Shown piece after piece: positions 1,689-22,076 of a stretch of 25,541 nucleotides of DNA; positions within the stretch are counted from its first letter, which is position 1; every line of letters starts with the position of its first letter. This DNA is from Candidatus Latescibacterota bacterium. Lineage in GTDB: Bacteria > JAAXHH01 > JACQVL01. The stretch is taken from contig JACQVL010000327.1 in assembly GCA_016209865.1 (NCBI GenBank), forward strand, positions 1 to 25,541, in the 5' to 3' direction. The notes beneath the pieces are model-generated. The model was given only the letters and a program-made list of their open reading frames with translations. It did no database searches and was not told the DNA's origin. The translations under genes and the position numbers were made by a program.

Positions 1689-2762
1689 TTGTCAAACCCC
1701 TTTCGCGTCGGCATCCTCGGCGCTGGCCGCGCGTTGTTCATGGTCGCGTGCCGGAACGCATTCCCTCACGACCTGGCACTCGCCGGCATTTGCGACATTC
1801 GTCCAGCCCGGGCTGAACGGGTTGCCCAGCAACATCAGATCGAACGAATCTACCCGTCCTACGAGGCGATGCTCAACGACGACGCCATCGACCTCATCGT
1901 GATCGGGACGCCCGACCACGAGCACGCCCCGCAGGCGATCCAGGCTTTAGAGGCGGGTAAACACGTGCTCAGCGAGATCCCGGCGGCGTACGAGATCGCG
2001 CAACTTCAGCGTCTCATCGAGCTGGAAGAGAAGAACGGGCTTATCTATGCGATGGGGAATGAGGTCCGCTGGTTTCCGTACCTGGAGGCCGCGAAAAAGA
2101 TGGCGGAGGATGGTCTCTGGGGGACGATCTTCCACAGCGAAGCGGGCTACCTCCACAACCTGCGGATGGAAGGATGGCGACTGACCGAGCCGGAGACGGG
2201 CGAGACCCACTGGCGCTTCGACCCCCGGCGGCCGCAGACCACCTTCCTCGGCGGCGGGCCTCATGCGTTCGATACCCTGCGCTGGCTGACCGGGGAGATC
2301 AACTGGGTCGAGGTCTTCGCGTACGGAAACGCCCCCTACGTCCCGCCTCACCCGGAGCCGGGCAACGTCGTCGCCCTGCTGAAAGGGGCGTCCGGCCTGA
2401 TCAGCAAGGTCGAGTGCAGTTACGTCATGGCCCGGCCGTATTGTCTGTATTTCAACCTGTACGGGGACAAGGGCACGTTCGAGACTTCGCGCACCGACAG
2501 GGCCGGGCTGTTCTTCACGACGACGATTCCGCACATGGACCGGATGGAGCCGCTCGCGGTGCCGTACGCGACGCGCCCCGGCTACCACGCCGCCGATCAT
2601 GGTTCGTCGGAGATTCACATGGTGGCCGACCTGATTCAGGCCATCCGGCAGGGCAGGCCGGCGGCCATCAACGCCCGAGAGGCGGCACGGTCGATCGCCC
2701 CGGCGATCTGCGCGTTTGAGTCGATCCAGACCGGACGTCCGGTAGCGATTCCGCAATTTTGA
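1689..2762 (+). CDS. Gfo/Idh/MocA-family NAD(P)-dependent oxidoreductase
   Basis: A 357-residue protein starting at TTG 1689, supported by TGGAG 7 nt upstream; there is no in-frame ATG before residue 18. The N-terminal Rossmann domain shows VGILGAGRA (7-15) and VIGTPDHEHAPQAIQALEAG (71-90). The usual EKP catalytic/nicotinamide motif reads SEIP (95-98), so its lysine is Ile. The C-terminal alpha/beta domain keeps the GxHxxDxxxW-like motif GPHAFDTLRW (190-199), with His192 and Asp195. Family members oxidise or reduce sugars, inositols and sugar acids in the cytoplasm; the substrate cannot be read here. Its position after the GguC-like gene and just before a carbohydrate-deacetylase-like gene suggests sugar use. 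The EKP lysine is also lost in some other family members, so the protein may still be active. Confidence 0.88.
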   Translation: MSNPFRVGILGAGRALFMVACRNAFPHDLALAGICDIRPARAERVAQQHQIERIYPSYEAMLNDDAIDLIVIGTPDHEHAPQAIQALEAGKHVLSEIPAAYEIAQLQRLIELEEKNGLIYAMGNEVRWFPYLEAAKKMAEDGLWGTIFHSEAGYLHNLRMEGWRLTEPETGETHWRFDPRRPQTTFLGGGPHAFDTLRWLTGEINWVEVFAYGNAPYVPPHPEPGNVVALLKGASGLISKVECSYVMARPYCLYFNLYGDKGTFETSRTDRAGLFFTTTIPHMDRMEPLAVPYATRPGYHAADHGSSEIHMVADLIQAIRQGRPAAINAREAARSIAPAICAFESIQTGRPVAIPQF

Positions 2763-2788
2763 TACTGACGCCGAGGAACCTACCACTC

Positions 2789-4387
2789 ATGACGACATCT
2801 GACACTTCCGCCAGCATCCTCGTCCTCGCGCAGCACTCCGACCGCTGGTTCGCCTCGCCCGACGCGCTCGCTGAGCTGCTCCGGTTGGAAGGGATCAACG
2901 ACCTGGAGACGGCGGACCTGGAGCGTCTGACCCCGGCGCTCATCGAAGGCCGTTCCCTGGTCGTCGTCGGGCCGGCGGACCCATCCCCGGAGGCGGTCGA
3001 CCTGCTCCTTGCCCACGTGCGCGCCGGGGGCGGGCTGATCTGCCTGGCGCCGGGCGAGGCGTTCGCGTCCGCTCTGGGCCTCACCCATCACCTGCGCGGG
3101 ATGATGCACGGGCGGCTCCGTATCCCGCTCGACGGATTCCCGGATGTCGCACTGCCCATCCGGGGCTGGGCGCACCAGTATGGACTCAGCGCGTCTGCGG
3201 ACGGCGCAGAAATCGCTCCGTTGCTCGATCCGCAGGGACACCCGACCGGCTCCCCGGCCGTGCTCGAACTCCGTCACGGCGATGGGACGATCATCGTCTT
3301 AGCGTACGACCTGGCCGCCAGCACGTACCTGCTCCGCCAGGGCAACCCGCTGTTGGCCGGATGCCGGGCCTCCGGGTTCGACCGCATGCGTCCATCCGAT
3401 CTGTTCGACGGCTGGCACGACTTCAGCACCGCCGCTCATCCGGGCGCGGACCTCCAGTGCCATTTCTTCCGGACGCTCGTCCATCGGGCATGGCCGGATG
3501 AGACCGTCCTCCCCTGGCTCTGGTACTTTCCGGACGAGGCCGGGACGATCCTCCTGCTCACCTCGGACGACGACTGGTCGACGCGGGACGAGTTCAAGCG
3601 GCTCATCACCTCCTGCGAGGCCCACGCCGCCGGGCTGACGCTCTACCTCGTCCAGGAACGCAGCGTCATGGATCGTGCCTGGCTGGAGGACCTGGCCGGC
3701 CGTGGGTTCGATTTCTCCATCCACCCCGACCTTCCGCCGCCGACTCTCCCGCTCTGGGAACACCGGCTCGCCGGTCATGTTCGCCAATTCCAGGAAACAT
3801 ACGGCCGGTCGCCCAGCCCGTCAATCCGCAACCATTGCATCACCTGGTCGGGCTACTTAGAAGGCGTCCTGATCGAATCCCGCCAGGGGTTCCGGTTCGA
3901 CACCAACTACCTCTCACTCCTGCCGCAGGGACAGTATTACATGACGGGGTCCGGGCTTCCGATGCCGTTCGTCGACCTCTCCGGGTCGGTGCTCCCGGTC
4001 TTTCAGCTCCCCACGCAGTTTTCCGACGAGACAACCTTAGGCGACCGGGGGTTCGATTGGTCGTTGAACCTGACCCCGGAGCAGGGCATCGATCTGATCA
4101 CCGGATTGATGCGCCAGAACGTCGCAGGGCAGCACAGCATGCTGTGCGTGAACGCGCATCCAGTCTCCTTCGCCACCTACAGCGCCCCGCTCTGGGAGCC
4201 GGTGATGCAGTTCGCCCGTGCAGCAAGCATCCCGGTGTGGGACGTCGACCGCTTCAGCCGCTTCTGGCAAGCCCGGCGACAGGTACGGCTCAAACCGATC
4301 CCGAAACATCAGATCACCGATGAGACCCGCCTCCTCGTGTCCGAGTTCCCTGGGTTGTCGGTCAGACTCCCGAATCACTACCACTGA
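2789..4387 (+). CDS. Two-domain protein: GATase1-like N-terminus and polysaccharide-deacetylase-like C-terminus
   Basis: A 532-residue protein; ATG 2789 is preceded by GAGGA 11 nt upstream. An in-frame TTG at 2759 overlaps the previous gene and would add ten residues. The first ~190 residues look like a class I glutamine-amidotransferase-like or ThuA-like alpha/beta domain (ILVLAQHSDRW at 10-20, GRSLVVVGPADPSPEA, VRAGGGLICLAPGEA at 78-91), without a clear catalytic Cys. From about 250 a NodB-like deacetylase pattern appears: LLLTSDDDWS (255-264, metal-binding Asp cluster), FSIHPD (309-314, His312) and SIRNHC (345-350). No signal peptide is visible, so it is predicted cytoplasmic. Substrate unknown. 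It probably belongs to the same transcription unit as the oxidoreductase. The C-terminal call is moderately sure and the N-terminal call is weaker. Confidence 0.65.
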   Translation: MTTSDTSASILVLAQHSDRWFASPDALAELLRLEGINDLETADLERLTPALIEGRSLVVVGPADPSPEAVDLLLAHVRAGGGLICLAPGEAFASALGLTHHLRGMMHGRLRIPLDGFPDVALPIRGWAHQYGLSASADGAEIAPLLDPQGHPTGSPAVLELRHGDGTIIVLAYDLAASTYLLRQGNPLLAGCRASGFDRMRPSDLFDGWHDFSTAAHPGADLQCHFFRTLVHRAWPDETVLPWLWYFPDEAGTILLLTSDDDWSTRDEFKRLITSCEAHAAGLTLYLVQERSVMDRAWLEDLAGRGFDFSIHPDLPPPTLPLWEHRLAGHVRQFQETYGRSPSPSIRNHCITWSGYLEGVLIESRQGFRFDTNYLSLLPQGQYYMTGSGLPMPFVDLSGSVLPVFQLPTQFSDETTLGDRGFDWSLNLTPEQGIDLITGLMRQNVAGQHSMLCVNAHPVSFATYSAPLWEPVMQFARAASIPVWDVDRFSRFWQARRQVRLKPIPKHQITDETRLLVSEFPGLSVRLPNHYH

Positions 4388-4399
4388 GGGAGGGTGATG

Positions 4400-4738
4400 A
4401 TGCTCATCGTAATCCGTCTTGCGTTTCTTTTCCTTATCATCGGAGTCATGGGAATGTTCGGGTGTCGAGAGGATGAGAGCCGTGCGATGAACAAACTCGA
4501 CCCACGACTGAAGCTCCAGGTGCAGCGATTGGAGAACGCACCGGTGTCGGTGATGCTCAGAGTGACGGCAGAACTCGACTCGACACAATTGACGATTCTT
4601 GCACGCCATGGGGTGACGATCCAATCCCATATCGGCCCCGTCTACGTCTGCCAGATTCCGTTGCGATCCATCCTGCCGGTGGCCCGTGAGCCGTTCGTCG
4701 TGATGTTAGAAGCGCCGAAGGAGATGAAGCCGCAATGA
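4400..4738 (+). CDS. Small lipoprotein resembling the propeptide of the adjacent subtilase
   Basis: A 112-residue protein with a hydrophobic signal segment (1-18) and a lipobox-like MFGC (19-22), so Cys22 would be the lipidated residue. ATG 4400 is chosen because GGAGG ends 6 nt upstream; ATG 4397 and GTG 4394 are in frame but too close to it. The mature part matches the pro-region of the next gene by eye. KLDPRLKLQV aligns with KLDPVLKKLIV, and VTIQSHIGPVYVCQIPLRSI aligns with LQVQTVIGEIVVAEVPISRL, both followed by an ARE/ARPE-(F/V)VV segment. It therefore looks like a separate, membrane-anchored I9-type inhibitor or intramolecular-chaperone-like domain. It lies 11 nt before the protease start. 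The homology rests on a visual alignment; the function is inferred. Confidence 0.72.
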   Translation: MLIVIRLAFLFLIIGVMGMFGCREDESRAMNKLDPRLKLQVQRLENAPVSVMLRVTAELDSTQLTILARHGVTIQSHIGPVYVCQIPLRSILPVAREPFVVMLEAPKEMKPQ

Positions 4739-4749
4739 AGGAGTCCGTT

Positions 4750-7263
4750 ATGTCTCTGCATCGCCCACTGAAGACGATATCCCGACTTTCTCTCCGCGTC
4801 CTTCTCTTCACCCTGATGGTCGTCGTTCCGGCGATCGGCTTCAGCCAGGAGAACGATAAGCTCGACCCGGTGCTCAAGAAACTCATCGTCAGCCCGGACG
4901 CCGCGCAAACCCCCGCCCTCCGGCCGCTGGTCAGGACGACCGGGATCGAACCGACGGTCGGGGTGTTCATCCGGACGACGAACGGCGCGGTCGCGCTCGA
5001 TACGCCGGGACTCCAGGTGCAGACGGTCATCGGGGAGATCGTCGTGGCAGAGGTCCCGATCTCCCGGCTGGGCGACCTGGCGGCCCGGCCGGAGGTGGTG
5101 TCTGTTCACGCCGCGAAAGTCTGGATGCCGCTGCTCGACGCCAGCGTGCCGGAGACGAAAGCCAATCAGGTGCGCAGTTCGTACGCCGTCACCGGCAAGA
5201 ACGTGATCGTCGGGGTGATCGATACGGGGATCGACTGGCGGCATCTCGACTTCCGGTCCGCGACGGACACGACGAAGACACGGATCAAGTTCCTCTGGGA
5301 CATGAGCGACAACACCGGGCCGCCGCCCGGTGGGACGTTCGCCACCTCCGGGGGGACGGAGTATGCTGACACGACGATCAACAAAGCGTTTGTGGGAATG
5401 GCGACCGTGAATGAACGAGATGTCGCCGGTCATGGGACGCACGTGGCGGGGATTGCCGCCGGGAACGGTCGTGCCGGCTCACCTGGCGGAGTGTACGTCG
5501 GCATGGCTCCTGAGGCGGACCTGATCATCGTGAAGGCGACACGGGGGAGTGCCCAGAGTTTCTCATCGAACGATATCGTCACGGCCATGGACTACATCGA
5601 CGCGAAGGCTGCCCAGTTGAACAAACCGTACGTCATCAACTTGAGCCTGGGCGGCCAGCAGGGCCCGCATGACGGGACGGATACGGAAGGGGTTGCCATC
5701 GATAATCTCGTCGGAACCGGAAAACTGGACAAAGTTGTGGTCGCCTCTGCCGGGAATGATGGCACCAAACGGATTCACGCTCGTGGGACGCTTATCAGCA
5801 GTGTGGTCGACAGTACGAAGAGTTTCACCGCATCAGCCGGGGATAACATCTCTATCGATATCTGGACGCAGGTTCAACTGGCTATCCCAAACCAGGTCTT
5901 CATCAGCGTCGCAGGCCCGGATACGACCGCCGGCCCGGACGACGGGTTCCCGACGTTCGTCAGCGATAATTCGAACGGGAAGGTCACCATCGTGAGCAGT
6001 CCGTTTGGCACGTCAAACATTAACACGGACGTGAACATCGTGGTCAAGAAATCAGGCACCTGGAGCATCAAAATCCGAGGCAACAAAGGGTCGGCGTCCG
6101 GCCGGTTCGACATGTGGATCTACGACGGCGTCGTCCAGTTCAACGCGGCGGATGGGGATACGACGACGCTCGTCGGCGCGCCGGGCGCGTCGAAGAACGC
6201 GATCACCGTCGGCGCGTACGTGACCAAAGGGTCCTGGACAGACGTGAACGGGGTCCCGCATACGTCCACGTCCGGTGGAGTGCCTGTGGTCGTGGGGAAC
6301 GTGTCGAGTTTTTCCAGCCCGGGTCCGACGCGCGACGGACGCCAAAAACCGGAAATCTCCGCCCCTGGCCAGGTCATCGGGTCGTCGTTCTCGTCCGATG
6401 CGACACCGGGTAACGGGACATCGATCTTCCAGACGGCGAACCTGCTTCAAGACGGCAAGCACGCCATCGCGCAAGGGACGAGCATGTCCGCTCCGCACGT
6501 GACGGGCGCGGTCGCGCTGTTCCTCGAACAGAGCGTCAAACGGAGCCTCTCACTCGATGCGATCCAGGTTCGAAGCCTCTTCCAGTCCTCCGCGAAGACC
6601 GACGTGTTCACAGGAACCGTTCCGAACGACAAATGGGGCTACGGGAAGATGGACGTCGAGAGGCTGTTTGTCAACTTCTTCGGATTGCCGAATGCCGTCA
6701 CACTCGCTTCCTTTACAGTGGCAGCGAACGGTCGGCGGGTGCATCTCGCCTGGGAGGTGACGAGCACGTCCGATCATGCGGGGTTTCATGTCTACCGCTC
6801 TCCATCCGGCCGTGAACAAGACCGCCGGGTGATCACCCCGCAGCTCCTCACGGGTGGGCCGAGTCTCACGTACGACGACATGCCACCGGGGCCGGGAGTG
6901 TACGCATACTGGCTCGCCGACGTTGATCTGGCAGGCCGGACGACGTTTCATGGGCCCGTGGTCGTCACGTTCTCGACCGTCCCCTCCACGTTCCGGCTCG
7001 GCCAGAGCCGTCCGAACCCGTTTAACCCGACAGCCACGATCGAGTATGATGTTCCTCGATCTGAACACGTCACTCTTCGCGTCTACGATATCATGGGCCG
7101 GGAAGTCCGGAGGCTCGTCAACGAGCGGCAGCCAGCGGGCTTCTACCAGGTCGTCTGGGACGGCCGGGATGACCAGGGTATCGCGGCCAGCAGTGGAGTA
7201 TATTTCTACAAGATGACCGCCGGTGCATTCACTCAATCACGCAAGATGACGCTGGTGAAATGA
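4750..7263 (+). CDS. Secreted S8 subtilisin-like serine protease with FN3-like and FlgD-type C-terminal domains
   Basis: An 837-residue precursor. ATG 4750 has AAGGAG 6 nt upstream; ATG 4735, overlapping the lipoprotein stop as ATGA, is the alternative. A signal peptide covers about 1-32, an I9-like pro-region about 36-125, and the peptidase S8 domain about 135-645. The catalytic triad is Asp158 (GVIDTG), His228 (GHGTHVAGI) and Ser578 (GTSMSAPHV), with Asn336 (SAGND) as the oxyanion residue. A roughly 140-residue beta-rich insertion lies at 340-480. A FN3-like domain (about 650-750) and a FlgD-like tail (about 757-837: RPNPFNPTATIEYDVP, VYDIMGREV, SSGVYFYKM) follow. Such tails are common on exported proteins of FCB-group bacteria and in some phyla are type IX sorting domains. 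The adjacent propeptide-like lipoprotein may control folding or activity. Confidence 0.95.
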   Translation: MSLHRPLKTISRLSLRVLLFTLMVVVPAIGFSQENDKLDPVLKKLIVSPDAAQTPALRPLVRTTGIEPTVGVFIRTTNGAVALDTPGLQVQTVIGEIVVAEVPISRLGDLAARPEVVSVHAAKVWMPLLDASVPETKANQVRSSYAVTGKNVIVGVIDTGIDWRHLDFRSATDTTKTRIKFLWDMSDNTGPPPGGTFATSGGTEYADTTINKAFVGMATVNERDVAGHGTHVAGIAAGNGRAGSPGGVYVGMAPEADLIIVKATRGSAQSFSSNDIVTAMDYIDAKAAQLNKPYVINLSLGGQQGPHDGTDTEGVAIDNLVGTGKLDKVVVASAGNDGTKRIHARGTLISSVVDSTKSFTASAGDNISIDIWTQVQLAIPNQVFISVAGPDTTAGPDDGFPTFVSDNSNGKVTIVSSPFGTSNINTDVNIVVKKSGTWSIKIRGNKGSASGRFDMWIYDGVVQFNAADGDTTTLVGAPGASKNAITVGAYVTKGSWTDVNGVPHTSTSGGVPVVVGNVSSFSSPGPTRDGRQKPEISAPGQVIGSSFSSDATPGNGTSIFQTANLLQDGKHAIAQGTSMSAPHVTGAVALFLEQSVKRSLSLDAIQVRSLFQSSAKTDVFTGTVPNDKWGYGKMDVERLFVNFFGLPNAVTLASFTVAANGRRVHLAWEVTSTSDHAGFHVYRSPSGREQDRRVITPQLLTGGPSLTYDDMPPGPGVYAYWLADVDLAGRTTFHGPVVVTFSTVPSTFRLGQSRPNPFNPTATIEYDVPRSEHVTLRVYDIMGREVRRLVNERQPAGFYQVVWDGRDDQGIAASSGVYFYKMTAGAFTQSRKMTLVK

Positions 7264-7264
7264 C

Positions 7265-7353
7265 GGAAAATAGAAAATGGGAAATGGGAAATAACCCCAA
7301 TGCTCATTTTCCATTTTCTGATTTCCATTTTCCATTTCCTATTTTCCATTTCT
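7265..7353. repeat. Inverted A/T-rich heptamer arrays between subtilase and rnr
   Basis: The left arm (7265-7292) is about four degenerate units of the GAAAATG type and the right arm (7305-7353) about seven units of the complementary ATTTTCC type, both with period 7. The arms can pair into a long imperfect hairpin. The array begins two bases after the subtilase stop and ends two bases before the likely rnr ATG. Because seven is not a multiple of three, the right arm is read as a heptapeptide repeat of the HFPFxxF kind in the rnr frame, which is open throughout. Confidence 0.88.
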
Positions 7354-7355
7354 CT

Positions 7356-9575
7356 ATGCCTCTCACCAAAGACGATATCCTCACTTTCATGCGGAGCCCG
7401 GAGTACCGGCCGCTCCGCATCCGTGAATTGGCCCGCTCGCTCGCCGTGCGGAATGAAGGCTACCGCTCCTTTCGCCGGCTCGTCGCAGAGATGGTCGAGG
7501 CCGGCGAGGTCGTGGAACTCCGGCGGAAGCAGTTCGCTCTGCCTGGGAGCGGGAGCTTCATCGTCGGCCTGCTGCACGGCCATCAGGGCGGGTTCGGTTT
7601 CGTCACACCCGACGCTGGTGAGCCGGATGTCTTCATCGGGGCGGACTCGATGGGACAGGCTCTTCACGGGGATAAGGTGCTCGTTCGGCTGTACGGACGG
7701 CGGCGCGGGCTGAACCCGGAAGGGGAGATCGTCCGCGTGCTCGAACGCGGCCGCGCCCCGATCGTCGGTCTCTACCGGCGGGAAGGGACTGGTGGGTACG
7801 TCATCCCGGATGATACGAGGATCACCCGCAACATCCTGATCGCCCGGCGGAACGCGAAAGAGGCGCAGACGGACCAGAAGGTCGTCGTCCATGTCACGAA
7901 CTGGGACACGAGTTCCCACCTGCCAGAAGGCCGGATCACCGAGGTGCTGGGGTTCCCGGACGACCCCGGCCTGGAGATACTGTCCCTCATCCGGAGCTAC
8001 GACCTGCCGCTCGATTTCCCCGACCCGGTGTTAGACGAAGCGGAACGGTTTCCCGCCAGTCTCCCGCACGAAGCGCTCGTCGGCCGGGTTGACCTGCGAT
8101 CCACCCGGTGCATCACGATCGACCCGGTCGATGCGCGGGATTTCGACGACGCGGTGTCCATCCAGCGGCTTCCGAACGGCCACTACCGGCTCGGCGTTCA
8201 CATCGCGGATGTCGGGTCCTACGTGCGCGAGGGGAGCTTGATCGACCGGGAAGCCCTGTACCGGGGGACGAGCATCTACCTCGTCGATCGTGTCATCCCG
8301 ATGCTCCCGCACCGGTTGACGAACGACATCTGCTCGTTGAAACCCGGCGTCGACCGGCTGACGATGAGTGTGTGGATGGAGGTCGCTCCGTCGGGGGAGG
8401 TCGTCCGGTACGAGATTCGGGACAGCGTTATCCGGAGCGCGTACCGGCTGACGTACGAAGAAGCCCAGGAATGGGTCGAGACGGGCGACCCGCACGACGC
8501 GAAGACTGGGGCGATCGTCGCCGACCTCCGGGTGTTGCTCGACCTGAGCGTCATCCTGCGCGGCCGGCGGGTGGCGTCGGGAAGTCTTGATTTCGACCTG
8601 CCGGAACCGTTCGTGCTGCTCGACCCGGAGGGCAAGCCGCTCGACGTCCGCAGAGCAGAACGATTAGCCAGTCATCGTCTGATCGAAGAATGTATGCTGC
8701 TCGCCAACCAGACGGTCGCGGGTCACCTGCTCCGGCTGGGCATCCCCGCCCTCTACCGCGTGCACGCGAGACCAAGCCCGGACAGGCTCAAAGAGCTCCA
8801 GCTCCTCCTCGCCGGGTTCGGGTATACGCTGACCGCGCGGGATGTGGCGCATCCGAAGAAACTGCAGGCGTTCCTGGAATCGATCAAAGACCAGCCCGAC
8901 CATGTGGTCATCAACGACATCGTCCTCCGGTCGCTGAAGAAGGCTCAGTACGCTGTGGACAACATCGGGCATTACGGCCTGGCGTTCGACTGGTACACGC
9001 ATTTCACGTCCCCCATCCGGCGGTATCCTGATCTGGCCGTCCACCGGCTCCTCCGCGAGCTGCAGCCGGGACTGCCCCAGCCCGACCGGCAGCGCCAGGT
9101 CGAGCTGTTTTTCCGGCGGGCGGCGGAGATCGCCTCCCGGCGGGAAAAGCTGGCGGAGGAGGTCGAGCGGGAGTCGGTCAAGATCAAGCAAGTCGAGTTC
9201 ATGGAGGGGAAGATCGGGGAGGTGTATGAGGGGATCATCTCCGGGGTCGTCCAGTCCGGGTTGTTCGTCGAACTGGAGGATTCGTTGATCAACGGTCTGG
9301 TGCATACCTCGACCCTGACCGATGATTATTATGTGTTCGATCGGGACCGGCGCCGGCTGATAGGGGAGCGGACGAAGCGGGTCTTCCGGTTGGGCGACCG
9401 GGTGCGGGTCCGGGTGACGCGGGCGGACCGGCGGCTCCGGCGGATCGATTTCGAGCTGGTCGACGAGGGGGCTCGTGCCGTGCGAGTTGTCGACGGGGAG
9501 CAGGACACACGTCGCGTGCGCGGCCGGGTCAGGAAAGGTCGGCCTCGTCGTGGAGGGATAGGGCGGAGCAGATAA
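7356..9575 (+). CDS. rnr: Ribonuclease R (RNB-family 3'-5' exoribonuclease)
   Basis: A 739-residue protein, a usual length for RNase R, which degrades structured RNA processively in the cytoplasm. Domains in order: a winged-helix HTH_12 domain (about 3-60: LTKDDILTFMRSPEYRPL), cold-shock/OB domains (about 65-200: GFGFVTPDAGEPDVFIG), the RNB catalytic domain (about 245-585) and an S1 domain (about 620-705: GIISGVVQSGLFVELED). The catalytic aspartates are in IDPVDARDFDDAV (255-267: Asp256, 262, 264, 265). A basic tail follows. ATG 7356 fits the family N-terminus, but the bases before it are pyrimidine-rich heptamer repeat with no Shine-Dalgarno site. The frame is also open back to ATG 7260, which overlaps the subtilase stop (ATGA); starting there would add 32 repeat-encoded residues. 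Function is certain, start is not. Confidence 0.95.
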   Translation: MPLTKDDILTFMRSPEYRPLRIRELARSLAVRNEGYRSFRRLVAEMVEAGEVVELRRKQFALPGSGSFIVGLLHGHQGGFGFVTPDAGEPDVFIGADSMGQALHGDKVLVRLYGRRRGLNPEGEIVRVLERGRAPIVGLYRREGTGGYVIPDDTRITRNILIARRNAKEAQTDQKVVVHVTNWDTSSHLPEGRITEVLGFPDDPGLEILSLIRSYDLPLDFPDPVLDEAERFPASLPHEALVGRVDLRSTRCITIDPVDARDFDDAVSIQRLPNGHYRLGVHIADVGSYVREGSLIDREALYRGTSIYLVDRVIPMLPHRLTNDICSLKPGVDRLTMSVWMEVAPSGEVVRYEIRDSVIRSAYRLTYEEAQEWVETGDPHDAKTGAIVADLRVLLDLSVILRGRRVASGSLDFDLPEPFVLLDPEGKPLDVRRAERLASHRLIEECMLLANQTVAGHLLRLGIPALYRVHARPSPDRLKELQLLLAGFGYTLTARDVAHPKKLQAFLESIKDQPDHVVINDIVLRSLKKAQYAVDNIGHYGLAFDWYTHFTSPIRRYPDLAVHRLLRELQPGLPQPDRQRQVELFFRRAAEIASRREKLAEEVERESVKIKQVEFMEGKIGEVYEGIISGVVQSGLFVELEDSLINGLVHTSTLTDDYYVFDRDRRRLIGERTKRVFRLGDRVRVRVTRADRRLRRIDFELVDEGARAVRVVDGEQDTRRVRGRVRKGRPRRGGIGRSR

Positions 9576-16244: not shown

Positions 16245-16258
16245 TCACCGACCACCGA
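16231..16258. repeat. Heptamer array spanning two convergent stop codons
   Basis: Four period-7 units: CCACCGA, CCACTGA, TCACCGA and CCACCGA. The TGA of the second unit (16242-16244) stops the + strand solute-binding gene, and the next three bases, TCA (16245-16247), are the TGA stop of the - strand fusion gene. Both reading frames therefore end within the array, back to back with no gap. Confidence 0.85.
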
Positions 16259-18557
16259 TTAACTTCACCGCCATCCGGATGGCGGCTCCTAAGTTTTCCG
16301 GGTTGGCCACCCCCTGGCCCGCGATGTCGAACGCCGTCCCGTGATCGACGGACGTCCGGACGATGGGCAAGCCGAGCGAGACGTTGACACTCCGGTCGAA
16401 CGCGATCGCTTTGACCGGGATGTGCCCCTGATCGTGGTACATCCCGACGATCCCGTCGAACTCGCCCCGCAGGGCCCTCATGAACACTGTGTCGGGCGGG
16501 AGCGGTCCGATCACCTGCCAGCCGGCTGCCTGCGCCTTCTGGATGGCCGGGGTGATGATCCGGATTTCCTCATCCCCGAACATCCCCCCTTCTCCGGCGT
16601 GCGGGTTCAGGCCGGCGACCGCGATCCGGGGGTTCGGTCTGCCCGTCCGTTTGAGCGCGTTCCCGATGATCTCGACCGTCGTGATGATGCCGTCTTCCGA
16701 GAGCCGCTCGATGGCCTGACGGAGGGAGACATGGGTGGTGACGTGCGAGACGAGGATCGAATCGAACGCGAGCGTCAGCCGGTACGCCTTCGTGCCCGTG
16801 AGGTCTGCCAGCAATTCCGTGTGTCCGGCGTAGTGATACCCGGCCCGGTTCATCGCCTCTTTATTGAGCGGCGCGGTGACCACACCGCCAATCTCCCCGG
16901 CCATCGCCAGCCGGGTCGCCGTCACGACCGACTCGACGGCTAAGCGCCCGGCCAGCTCACTCACCTCGCCCGGCTTCAGCCGTTCGACATCCGCCTCCAT
17001 CACGGTCAACACATCGATCGTCCCCGGGCGGAACTGCGCCTCACGCGGGGCGGTCACCGGGTTGACCCGGAGCGGGGACGGGGCAAACCGCAGGTGCCGG
17101 GCGATCACGTCCGCATGGCCGACGACCAGCGGACGGCACACCCTGTAGATCTCAGGGTCCGCCAGGGTCTTGACGATGATCTCAGGCCCGATGCCGTTCG
17201 GGTCGCCCATCGTGATACCCAAGATGGGACGCTGCGCGGGGTCGATCACGGCCGCTGACTCCGGCCGCAGCGCCTGGACGGTCGTGACCAGACCGTCCGG
17301 CCCGCCGAACGCCCCTGGTTTGATGACGACGGGCAGTCCGTCGTACGGGCCGCCGAGCAGGTTGACCCGCGCGATCCCCGGCCTGACTTCACTGACGATT
17401 CGAGTTCCCCACCCTTCCAGGCTGCGGATGACGTGCGTGGCCGTCTCCCCGCCGGTGACGACCAGGCCCGCGGGCCGCTCTCGCGCGAAGACCCGCCGCC
17501 CGATCTCTCCCAGCCGGGCCGCCAGACGTTCCACCGGGTCGTCGCCGCCTGCCTGCGTCCTGAGCCGGTCGACCCACGCCCGTCGATCCGTCTCGTCTGG
17601 GGGGGTGAGCGACAACATCACATCCTGGCCGGCGCTCAGCCCTGCTACGCCCTCTTGAACGACCCGCTCCATCTCCCGTTCCGTATCCCCGTCCATGAAC
17701 AAAGCGGCGAGATCGATCCGGCAGACGGTCGTCCGTGGACGCCGGCTCATCTCATCGACCTGTCGCGCCGTCACGGGATGCACACTCCCGGCGATGAGCA
17801 GGACGGGGCCGGACGCCTGCTGGACCGGAGGAAGTGCTGCCGCTGGCGTCGTTTCGGTCCCCGCCAGCCGGGCCGCCAGACGCCGGGCCAGGCCAGCCGA
17901 CCCGCAGAGCAGGGGCGCCGGCTGCATCGCGTCGACCGCGGCCAGAATGGTGTCCAGGTCGTCGGACGACGCGGCATCGACGACGATCGTCGCGGCGCCG
18001 GCCCAGATCAATTCATCAACCTGTCGCTGGATTGCCTCCGAGCCCGACAATACCGTCTGCAGCTCCACATGGCCGACCGGACAGCTCGACTGACGTTCGA
18101 TCAGGTCGGGGAGGAACGAGGTCGTCACCGGGCTGCCCGGGTCGTCTCTCATCGCCGTCCGGCTGACCGGGACGCCATCGACGAGATGGTACCCGCCGAC
18201 CGTAATCCGGCCGAGTTCCGGGAACGCGGGGACGACGAGCACGGCCGGGTATCCGAGCACCGCGCGGACCGCGTCCGCTTCCTGGCCGATGTGGCCGCGC
18301 AGCGTCGAATCGATCTTCTTATAGAGCACCCGATGACCAGTCTGGAGGGTCGTCTTACAGGCGGCCGCCGTCCGGCGGGACGCGTCATCAGGCGGGCAAT
18401 CGCGGCTGTGGGTGTCGATGACGACGATATCGGCCTCGACAGAGGGCAGCCGGTCGGCGGAGAGGAGCACGACCGTGCGGAGTCCATGCACGGCAAACGG
18501 CAGGCCAGCATCATTCGCCCCGGCGAAATCGTCGGCGAGGATGACAAGGGGGGGCAT
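16245..18557 (-). CDS. Fused four-carbon acid sugar kinase (DUF1537/OtnK-DtnK type) and PdxA-type 4-phosphate dehydrogenase
   Basis: A 770-residue fusion. ATG 18557 (PPLVILADDF) is chosen because the longer frame to 18659 is repeat-derived. The kinase half (about 1-430) has ADDFAGANDAG (8-18), KKIDSTLRGHIG (80-91), LLIAGSVHPVTARQ (253-266), the nucleotide-binding VVTGGETA (367-374) and IKPGAFGGPDG (412-422). The PdxA half (about 443-770) has GITMGDPNGIGPEI (447-460), metal-ligand candidates His579 (AGHTE), His609 and His708 (YHDQGH), and NPHAGEGG (651-658). As separate neighbours, D-threonate/D-erythronate kinases and PdxA2 turn four-carbon acid sugars into dihydroxyacetone phosphate plus CO2; the fusion would join both steps. 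The alternative is phosphorylation of 4-hydroxythreonine for vitamin B6 synthesis. Cytoplasmic. Confidence 0.92.
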   Translation of the reverse strand: MPPLVILADDFAGANDAGLPFAVHGLRTVVLLSADRLPSVEADIVVIDTHSRDCPPDDASRRTAAACKTTLQTGHRVLYKKIDSTLRGHIGQEADAVRAVLGYPAVLVVPAFPELGRITVGGYHLVDGVPVSRTAMRDDPGSPVTTSFLPDLIERQSSCPVGHVELQTVLSGSEAIQRQVDELIWAGAATIVVDAASSDDLDTILAAVDAMQPAPLLCGSAGLARRLAARLAGTETTPAAALPPVQQASGPVLLIAGSVHPVTARQVDEMSRRPRTTVCRIDLAALFMDGDTEREMERVVQEGVAGLSAGQDVMLSLTPPDETDRRAWVDRLRTQAGGDDPVERLAARLGEIGRRVFARERPAGLVVTGGETATHVIRSLEGWGTRIVSEVRPGIARVNLLGGPYDGLPVVIKPGAFGGPDGLVTTVQALRPESAAVIDPAQRPILGITMGDPNGIGPEIIVKTLADPEIYRVCRPLVVGHADVIARHLRFAPSPLRVNPVTAPREAQFRPGTIDVLTVMEADVERLKPGEVSELAGRLAVESVVTATRLAMAGEIGGVVTAPLNKEAMNRAGYHYAGHTELLADLTGTKAYRLTLAFDSILVSHVTTHVSLRQAIERLSEDGIITTVEIIGNALKRTGRPNPRIAVAGLNPHAGEGGMFGDEEIRIITPAIQKAQAAGWQVIGPLPPDTVFMRALRGEFDGIVGMYHDQGHIPVKAIAFDRSVNVSLGLPIVRTSVDHGTAFDIAGQGVANPENLGAAIRMAVKLIGGR

Positions 18558-18578
18558 GAAGGTCTCGCTCTTATGGGT

Positions 18579-18655
18579 TGTCATTCCCACGAAAGTGGGA
18601 ATCCATGTTCTTGAATGAACCGCCTCGATGGATTCCCGCTTGCACGGGAATGACA
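18579..18655. repeat. Paired inverted copies of the 27-bp palindromic (dRS3/REP-like) unit
   Basis: Units at 18579-18605 (TGTCATTCCCACG then AAAGTGGGAATCCA) and, inverted, at 18629-18655, separated by 23 bp. The stem bases differ between copies (CCCACG/AGTGGG in one) but still pair, so base pairing is conserved. The pair fills most of the 121-bp gap between the PLP enzyme and the kinase-PdxA gene and could separate or attenuate their expression. Confidence 0.85.
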
Positions 18656-18678
18656 GCATAAAGAACCGGCCAGGGGAG

Positions 18679-20023: not shown

Positions 20024-20105
20024 ACCGACGTTGAACACGATCCAACCAGGAGAGAGTGGGGACCTGCATCAGCCAGGTTGTTGCGACGCTGGCGGGAGAG
20101 GGTTT

Positions 20106-22076
20106 ATGCGTGATCCTGCAAAGGTTCTGATTGTCGACGATGAGGAGGGGGTTCGACAGGTCGTTGCGGCGTTCTTCCAGAGACACGGCTGCCAGGTGTT
20201 CACGGCACGCGACGGTCTGGAAGGGGTCGAGCAGGTCCGGCAGCAGCACTTCGACCTGATCATCCTCGACCTGAACATGCCCCGGATGAATGGGATGGAA
20301 GCCTTACCGATCATCCGCGAAGTCGACCCAGAGACACGCGTGGTGATCCTGACCGGGTACGGCTCGTATGAATCCAAAGTGGAAGCGCGGGAGAAAGGGG
20401 TGTACGATTACCTCCTGAAGCCTGTCAGCGTGACCAAGCTCAAGGAGGTCGCGGATCGAGCCCTGCCGGAGCGTCGTCAGATGACGGACCGGCGCCAGGC
20501 CGGCGATCAACCCGGCGAAGGCCTCAGTAAGGTCCGTCTGTCCCCCGGGAAGGTCGACCCGGTGATCGCGCAGGAGATCCCGGAGCGGATTGCCCGTGTC
20601 TTTTCCGTGGTCGCCCTGGCCAAGAAAGGGGACACGCTGACGGTGGCGATGGTCGATCCGTTCGATCTCGTCGCGCTCGACACGCTGAATACACAGATCG
20701 GATACCAGATCAAGCCAGTGCCCGCGGACCGGTACGAGATCATGAAGACCATCGACGAGGTTTACAGGGGCGCGCGCGATACGGGACAGCGGTCTCTCGA
20801 CGCTGAACCGGTCCCGTCGCCGCCCCCGGTGACCGCAAAGCCAGCGGCGGTTGTCCCCGTTCACGAGCCATCCAGGCCTGCCAGCACCGGTGAGACGAAC
20901 GACGCCGCTGTGCAGTGGGTGAACCTCATCCTGCTGCAGGCCGTCCAAAGCCGGGCGAGCGACATCCATCTCGAGCCCTGGACCCAATCCGTCTCCGTCC
21001 GGCTTCGGATCGACGGCATGCTCCACGAGATCAACGCCCCTTCCAAACAGTTGTTCCTGCCGATCGTCTCACGCATCAAACAGCTCGCCGGCCTGGATGT
21101 CGCCGAGTGCCGGATTCCTCAAGGCCGGCGAGTCCATGTGCGCCTGGAACAGCAGGAGGTCGATCTCCGGATCATGACCCTGCCCACCGTGTATGGCGAG
21201 AGTGTCGTCGTCCACCTGATCGACGAGCGCCCCGGGTTCAGCGATATGAAGACATTGGGGTTCGACGCGTCCGCTTTGGCGCTCTTCGTTGAAGCGATTC
21301 AACGACCGCAGGGGATGGTGTGCCTGACCGGCCCGAAGGGGAGCGGGAAGACGACCACCCTGTATGCAGCCCTCCAGACCCTCAACTCGCGGCAACGGAA
21401 AATTATCACGGTCGAAGACCCGGTGGAGTACGAGGTCGAGGGCATCAACCAGGTGTCCGTCCGCGCCGACCTCGGCCTGACGTTCGCGTCCACCCTCCGT
21501 GCCGCCGTCCGGCAGAACCCGGACGTGATCCTGGCGGGAGAGATACGGGATGGGGAGACGGCAGACCTGGCCATCCAGGCCGCGCTGAACGGTCGACTCG
21601 TCCTCGGCGCCCTGCAGACGCCCGACGCTCCGTCCAGCCTGACCCACCTGGCCAGCCTGGGCCTCCCGCCCGCGCTCCTCGGCACAGCCCTGACTCTCAT
21701 CATCGCTCAGCGCCTCGTCCGCCGTCTCTGTCCCGACTGCACGACCGAGATCGTCCCGCCGGCAGAGCAGATAGAGCAGGCGAGGATGCTCGGCGCGGCC
21801 ACGATCCCGGCGAAGGTCTTCACGGGCGCCGGGTGCGGGCAATGTCGCAAGACCGGCTACCGTGGCCGGGTTGTGCTCCACGAGGTGCTGCCCATCACCG
21901 GCCGCATCCGGCAAGCCCTGATGCAAGGCGCGGGAGACGCGCACATCCGGAAAGAGGCCGCGGCGATGGGACATGCCTCGCTCATCGAGCATGGCCTGGC
22001 CAAAGCCGGGCAGGGGGTGACGACCCTGGCCGAGGTGCTGGGCGCGCTGTCTCCTTACCAGGCCGCATCGACCTGA
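20106..22076 (+). CDS. Fusion of response-regulator receiver, MshEN-type domain and PilB/GspE-family ATPase
   Basis: A 656-residue protein. ATG 20106 (MRDPAKVLIVDD) has GGGAGAGGG close upstream; the frame is also open from TTG 20031. Receiver domain about 5-120: acidic pair Asp11/Asp12, phospho-acceptor Asp55 (LIILDLNMP), Thr83, Lys105. An MshEN/GspE-N-like domain lies at about 145-222, then a Pro/Ala-rich linker (about 223-265). The secretion ATPase (about 266-640) has Walker A GPKGSGKTT (409-417), the Asp box TVEDPVEYE, Walker B DVILAGEIRD (473-482), and Cys542, 545, 577 and 580 for a zinc site. The His box is altered: the usual TGH is NGR (497) and LHTND is LQTPD (504). Such ATPases drive type IV pilus or type II secretion assembly. 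No pilus genes are nearby. A phosphorylation-controlled motor is inferred. Confidence 0.93.
   Translation: MRDPAKVLIVDDEEGVRQVVAAFFQRHGCQVFTARDGLEGVEQVRQQHFDLIILDLNMPRMNGMEALPIIREVDPETRVVILTGYGSYESKVEAREKGVYDYLLKPVSVTKLKEVADRALPERRQMTDRRQAGDQPGEGLSKVRLSPGKVDPVIAQEIPERIARVFSVVALAKKGDTLTVAMVDPFDLVALDTLNTQIGYQIKPVPADRYEIMKTIDEVYRGARDTGQRSLDAEPVPSPPPVTAKPAAVVPVHEPSRPASTGETNDAAVQWVNLILLQAVQSRASDIHLEPWTQSVSVRLRIDGMLHEINAPSKQLFLPIVSRIKQLAGLDVAECRIPQGRRVHVRLEQQEVDLRIMTLPTVYGESVVVHLIDERPGFSDMKTLGFDASALALFVEAIQRPQGMVCLTGPKGSGKTTTLYAALQTLNSRQRKIITVEDPVEYEVEGINQVSVRADLGLTFASTLRAAVRQNPDVILAGEIRDGETADLAIQAALNGRLVLGALQTPDAPSSLTHLASLGLPPALLGTALTLIIAQRLVRRLCPDCTTEIVPPAEQIEQARMLGAATIPAKVFTGAGCGQCRKTGYRGRVVLHEVLPITGRIRQALMQGAGDAHIRKEAAAMGHASLIEHGLAKAGQGVTTLAEVLGALSPYQAAST

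Follow-up and report, generated by a model that had tools for sequence, protein, structure and literature searches.

Why should a small lipoprotein gene stand immediately ahead of the gene for a secreted subtilase, and why should its product resemble the propeptide of that very protease? The window analysed here, i.e., the whole stretch of 25,541 nt from a Candidatus Latescibacterota bacterium (contig JACQVL010000327.1), raises this question with the following features, all on the plus strand.

4397..4738, plus strand: stand-alone propeptide-like lipoprotein, 113 aa (ORF and translation)
4397..4465, plus strand: predicted signal peptide of the lipoprotein with lipobox GMFG-C (sequence; hydrophobic N-terminus and lipobox scan)
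4493..4735, plus strand: predicted propeptide-fold domain of the lipoprotein (AlphaFold pLDDT 91.5; VIA Z 10.6 to ProN-Tk-SP and 8.4 to the Tk-subtilisin propeptide)
4709..4735, plus strand: C-terminal segment EAPKEMKPQ of the lipoprotein, expected within the active-site cleft of the protease by prediction (structural alignment ranges)
4735..4738, plus strand: ATGA overlap of the lipoprotein stop with the first subtilase start (sequence)
4735..7263 (alternative start 4750), plus strand: secreted Csp-like S8 subtilase, D/H/S motifs intact (Pfam PF00082, 1.6e-44; triad motifs; fold search)
4846..5133, plus strand: the subtilase's own prodomain (homology to stand-alones; secondary structure in the model)
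7012..7248, plus strand: C-terminal FlgD_ig/Por_Secre-like tail of the subtilase (Pfam PF13860, 8.5e-12; TIGR04183, 1.7e-9)

The lipoprotein is 113 aa long when read from the ATG at 4397 and 114 aa when read from an alternative GTG at 4394; the original prediction had both ORFs at the right positions, but gave the smaller one 112 aa. It is the only stand-alone propeptide-like ORF in its own genome and has an ORF and a signal peptide of its own; the 50 other cases described below are separate ORFs as well. A hydrophobic stretch precedes the lipobox GMFG-C, as in bacterial lipoproteins, and Cys23 (codon 4463-4465) is the residue predicted to be lipid-modified. A spacer of 9 residues separates it from the KLDP motif (K33). 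The residue at +2 is Arg. According to the Lol rule of E. coli, it is Asp at +2 that matters, and lipoproteins lacking it go to the outer membrane; by this analogy the protein would be placed there, though for the present bacterium that is no more than a guess. No Pfam family matched the lipoprotein at E up to 10, neither Inhibitor_I9 nor CspB_prodomain (PF18425), and no NCBIfam model did. A PDB sequence search with a combined profile returned zero matches, and no relatives were found in the viral contigs searched. Just upstream of the lipoprotein gene ends an ORF for a 542-aa protein (2759-4387) with a sub-threshold match to DUF4350 only, which is not conserved beside the pair in the related genome G013.

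The original prediction spoke of a gap of 11 nt between the two genes. This holds for the second subtilase ATG at 4750, but the first one overlaps the lipoprotein stop by 4 nt, and the ATGA arrangement makes translational coupling likely. Overlaps of -4 or -1 were present at 8/31 counted stand-alone/subtilase junctions, and the RNA around the overlap had no unusual structure (z +1.3). The subtilase carries a signal peptide and the motifs DTGID (Asp), GHGTH (His), and GTSMS (Ser), which by sequence are those of an active enzyme; cleavage of its prodomain is predicted near VWMPL/LDASVP. In the fold search, its model had clostridial CspB, CspC, and CspA structures as the top 11 matches. That model is shallow (6 sequences, pLDDT 62) and served for the overall fold only; a Csp-type jellyroll insert would fit these matches, but pLDDT is mostly below 50 in that region. 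PF18425 matched two fused prodomains homologous to the lipoprotein (E up to 2.4e-6), one of them with 23.7 bits, slightly below the cut-off of 25. The likeness to Csp proteases matters because the CspB prodomain supplied in trans folds the protease as a specific folding helper, and because its three C-terminal residues plug the active site (PMC3567191). A search of the genome for SprA of the type IX system gave no match, but this negative is uninformative, as the control genomes were likewise without one.

Elsewhere in the window, AT-rich direct and inverted repeats of the GGAAAATGGAAA type lie at 7265-7360, between the subtilase and RNase R genes. The RNase R ORF reads through them, and its true start is therefore probably the downstream ATG of MPLTKDD. 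One ORF of 804 aa (16245-18659, minus strand) fuses a four-carbon sugar-acid kinase (SBD_N and NBD_C) with PdxA, and at 20031-22076 a type II/IV secretion ATPase with a MshEN domain is joined to the receiver domain of a response regulator.

Homology of the lipoprotein to the propeptide next door was the core of the original prediction, where it was read from the shared motif order. The local BLOSUM62 score of the two regions is 63, while shuffled sequences gave 27 +/- 4.7 and none of 5000 scored as high. Profile-profile comparison, proposed there as a check, was carried out with hhalign on three stand-alones against seven subtilase prodomains and gave a probability of 97.6% and E 3.2e-12 from KLDP to the C-terminus; the Pfam Inhibitor_I9 profile itself did not match the lipoprotein. 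A score above all shuffles and this E value mean that the common order of motifs reflects homology and not chance; at the level of sequence, the lipoprotein and the adjacent prodomain are homologous.

The AlphaFold model points in the same direction. The 24 best VIA matches of the lipoprotein model are all S8 propeptides or proenzymes, and after the two matches listed above come subtilisin (Z 7.2-7.9), CspB (7.7), and POIA1 (6.2). Ferredoxin-like folds are common, and values of 7-8 are close to their background, because ribosomal S6 reaches 6.6. The alignment given to AlphaFold included subtilase prodomains, which could bias the model toward their fold. The lack of any fold similarity, named beforehand as a refutation, did not come about. 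Its last residue, 113, superposes on residues 77 of BPN', 69 of Tk-subtilisin, 96 of CspB, and 152 of PCSK9, and in the complete propeptides the final residue (P1) is aligned with the final residue of the lipoprotein, in a last block with pLDDT of 69. Residues 77, 69, and 152 of BPN', Tk-subtilisin, and PCSK9 are positions which we take to be P1. In CspB, P1 is Ser96 (PMC3567191). With its predicted fold, its separate gene, and a C-terminus placed by the model at P1, the lipoprotein would belong to the propeptide-like inhibitors of subtilases (MEROPS I9, taken broadly and by fold).

To see how widespread the arrangement is, 471 genomes (G000-G470) were surveyed with a search profile that varied among genomes. 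Stand-alone copies numbered 51 in five phyla, with one weak case in a sixth. Among them, 35 adjoin a same-strand S8 gene with its own prodomain, 12 do not (seven in the phylum of G035 and five elsewhere), and four are cut by contig ends; G444, with its nearest S8 more than 1 kb away, was left out of the partner count. Every adjacent subtilase, that of the window included, keeps its own prodomain. Weak matches in G111 and G100 lie in unrelated proteins and were rejected.

Conservation of the pair in related genomes, which the original prediction had asked about, was found in G013, a member of the same order: the gene order lipoprotein-subtilase-RNase R is kept at 54-58% identity, and the contig CAJXCW010000028.1 of this genome was the sole match when genome contigs were searched with a profile of three stand-alones. 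Both genes are missing from the genomes of genus g3, and all that G011 has is a broken subtilase of a different type. Pairs are present in other phyla as well. In G263, the lipoprotein gene lies 57 bp upstream of a secreted subtilase gene. G121 and G385, from another phylum, have a stand-alone of 93 residues that lacks a signal peptide; its gene lies 48 bp downstream of that for a signal-less subtilase. In the phylum of G341, stand-alones were found in 28/82 genomes, mostly directly upstream of a subtilase, and in G469 (L114:948-7238) two stand-alone/subtilase pairs stand in tandem, with a separate small partner upstream of each subtilase. The small phylum of G035 differs; seven genomes there each carry a single stand-alone lipoprotein, which is not linked to the subtilases. 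A lipoprotein without any S8 protease, the other outcome named as a refutation, was encountered only in G061 (80% complete) and G177 (72%), both incomplete genomes in which no partner was found. With this recurrence across several phyla, the pair probably represents a general bacterial means of restraining such proteases.

Some further subtilases were noted in the survey. A second one lies just upstream of the pair in G013 (L022:5240-6803, minus strand) and is broken, being split over two frames and interrupted within its catalytic domain; its frameshifted relative in G011 stands beside the same amidohydrolase and aminotransferase genes. The large subtilases of G062 and G060 (L041, L043), with a frame of more than 1060 aa starting with a lipobox Cys, apparently have two propeptide-like domains in tandem.

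Both members of a pair share their compartment. About 30 signal-bearing stand-alones adjoin a signal-bearing S8 and four signal-less ones (G121, G385, G469, G470) a signal-less S8, G451b with its unresolved N-terminus being left out; the Fisher p of 2e-5 is too small because the genomes are related. The signal-bearing stand-alones are nearly always lipoproteins. The lipoprotein gene comes first in secreted pairs, with G445 as the one exception, and the protease gene comes first in the cytoplasmic ones. Such matching and gene order are as expected of a protein that must meet its protease, and they speak against pure anchoring.

A tree built from 73 domains places the window lipoprotein and its relative in G013 together with lipoproteins of the G341 phylum (93/93) and not with the prodomains of their neighbours. 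Forcing a clade of local duplication costs 18.5 log units with p-AU of 0.051, and such a clade is thus only marginally disfavoured by the sequences. The designation of the lipoprotein as a second copy of the propeptide stands as far as homology goes, but it was probably not simply made from the gene next to it. A single clade of all stand-alones was not rejected (p-AU 0.378); the cytoplasmic ones group with cytoplasmic prodomains, and therefore two origins are possible as judged from the sequences. Deep forks of this tree are weak because the columns are few. The tails of stand-alones are closer to those of their own partners than to swapped ones (mean 1.13 vs 0.57 per column; 0/10000 permutations, with relatedness kept in). 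Between the G000 and G013 lipoproteins, the tail is identical at 11/13 positions and the rest at 43/77 (p 0.07), and 8/9 residues of EAPKEMKPQ are the same in the G013 counterpart.

Taken together, the lipoprotein is probably, though not with certainty, a trans-acting mimic of the propeptide, i.e., a tethered inhibitor and possibly a folding helper of the neighbouring protease. Its homology, its length up to P1, and the conserved pairing in matching compartments are observed, and the fold is predicted. Binding, inhibition, a chaperone role, the membrane concerned, and the release of the protease are inferred. The lipoprotein would be synthesized from the overlapping genes just ahead of the protease, exported, lipidated at Cys23, and held at the membrane by its short spacer. 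Its propeptide fold would then dock where the prodomain of the protease sits, and the tail EAPKEMKPQ would enter the active-site cleft in the manner of a cleaved propeptide. A protease that is folding or in transit would in this way be kept from attacking the cell, and the lipoprotein may also aid its folding. Against the mimic speaks the prodomain of the subtilase itself, because of which a second one is dispensable in principle, as do the 12 stand-alones not beside an S8, the many Csp-like subtilases with no stand-alone partner, and several stand-alones that extend 10-20 residues past P1. A broader reading, which we put forward tentatively and hold to be somewhat short of an even chance, is an undescribed cross-phylum module in which a Csp-like subtilase that has a prodomain of its own is combined with a compartment-matched trans-propeptide, which would hold the matured protease latent at the membrane until release by a signal or substrate. 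As part of that reading, and with the same reserve, the trans-propeptide would be a lipoprotein outside and a soluble protein inside.

Among other explanations, an external foldase is a serious candidate, although we would not bet on it: the stand-alone would mainly aid folding or export of the subtilase, and inhibition would be a passing side effect. The CspB prodomain restores folding in trans, the lipoprotein is produced first from overlapping genes, and two known proteins behave accordingly. ORF2 of Aeromonas sobria, encoded by a gene adjoining that of the propeptide-less subtilase ASP, is an external chaperone needed for its maturation and inhibits it with IC50 of 84 nM (PMC5638518; PDB 3wqb), and deletion of the lipoprotein PrcB abolishes the PrtP protein in the PrcB-PrcA-PrtP (dentilisin) system of Treponema denticola, where the subtilase PrtP needs PrcB (PMC8167434). 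However, ASP is propeptide-deficient while all adjacent subtilases here have a prodomain, and in cytoplasmic pairs the stand-alone is encoded after the protease. PrcB was also proposed as an anchor of dentilisin, and the lipoprotein form and short spacer would suit a retention factor that tethers the protease to the cell surface and docks on it through the propeptide fold. This is unlikely, as the cytoplasmic stand-alones are paired likewise but have no anchor, and the C-terminus expected in the active site is conserved.

More doubtful still is an immunity protein that shields sister cells from a secreted subtilase harming competitors. A putative cognate inhibitor that is anchored in a membrane and whose gene adjoins that of an exported protease would fit it, as would the matched tails; on the other side, strictly cytoplasmic pairs exist, some stand-alones are unlinked to a protease, and neither a delivery system nor a toxin context was found. 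Hardly credible is the view that part of the neighbouring gene was recently duplicated and that the copy has no function of its own, for which the same motif order and the adjacency could be cited. It is largely refuted by conservation of the ORF, the lipobox, and the C-terminal tail in G013 and by the recurrence of pairing in several phyla; the duplication history itself is disfavoured by the grouping with lipoproteins of another phylum and by the cost of the forced clade, but not firmly rejected.

If the lipoprotein acts as a propeptide mimic, its significance lies in control. Subtilase propeptides are normally used once and then destroyed, and a separate membrane-tethered copy would allow the protease to be controlled after maturation and in a chosen place. 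The family provides candidates for cognate inhibitors of Csp-like proteases and a rule for annotating these small proteins, which no Pfam or NCBIfam model matched, and its recurrence in several phyla and both compartments turns dozens of 'hypothetical lipoproteins' into a testable question.

In the open-access papers searched, no bacterial lipoprotein was found that mimics a propeptide and accompanies a subtilase still equipped with its own prodomain. Stand-alone propeptide inhibitors as such are already known from eukaryotes and from Aeromonas; the lipoprotein version is apparently new and matched no Pfam or NCBIfam model. Those of fungi, plants, and apicomplexans (POIA1, yeast proteinase B inhibitor 2, Arabidopsis SPI-1, Plasmodium SUB1-ProM, and Toxoplasma MIC5; MEROPS I9) (PMC6993865) are likewise small products of separate genes, folded like a propeptide and with a C-terminus directed at the active site. 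The gene for SUB1-ProM, too, lies beside subtilase genes, and POIA1 is a structural match of the lipoprotein model. They are eukaryotic, whereas the present family consists of bacterial lipoproteins or cytoplasmic proteins accompanying Csp-like subtilases, and the window lipoprotein is detectably homologous in sequence to the prodomain of its partner. CspB, CspA, and CspC share the fold of the window subtilase, and PF18425 matches related fused prodomains, but Csp prodomains are part of the protease and none is described as a separate lipoprotein gene in PMC3567191. ORF2 is alike as an adjacent-gene chaperone and inhibitor of a subtilase with its C-terminus in the active site; it has Pro as the penultimate residue, as the lipoprotein does, and was a weak Foldseek match (rank 28) of the model. 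It differs in that orf2 is downstream of asp, whose product lacks a propeptide, while here the lipoprotein gene is upstream and the protease keeps its prodomain, as in all other adjacent pairs. PrcB, compared by its description, is also a small lipoprotein encoded upstream of a subtilase that requires it, but it is a 23 kDa protein described as lacking homologues outside oral Treponema (PMC8167434).
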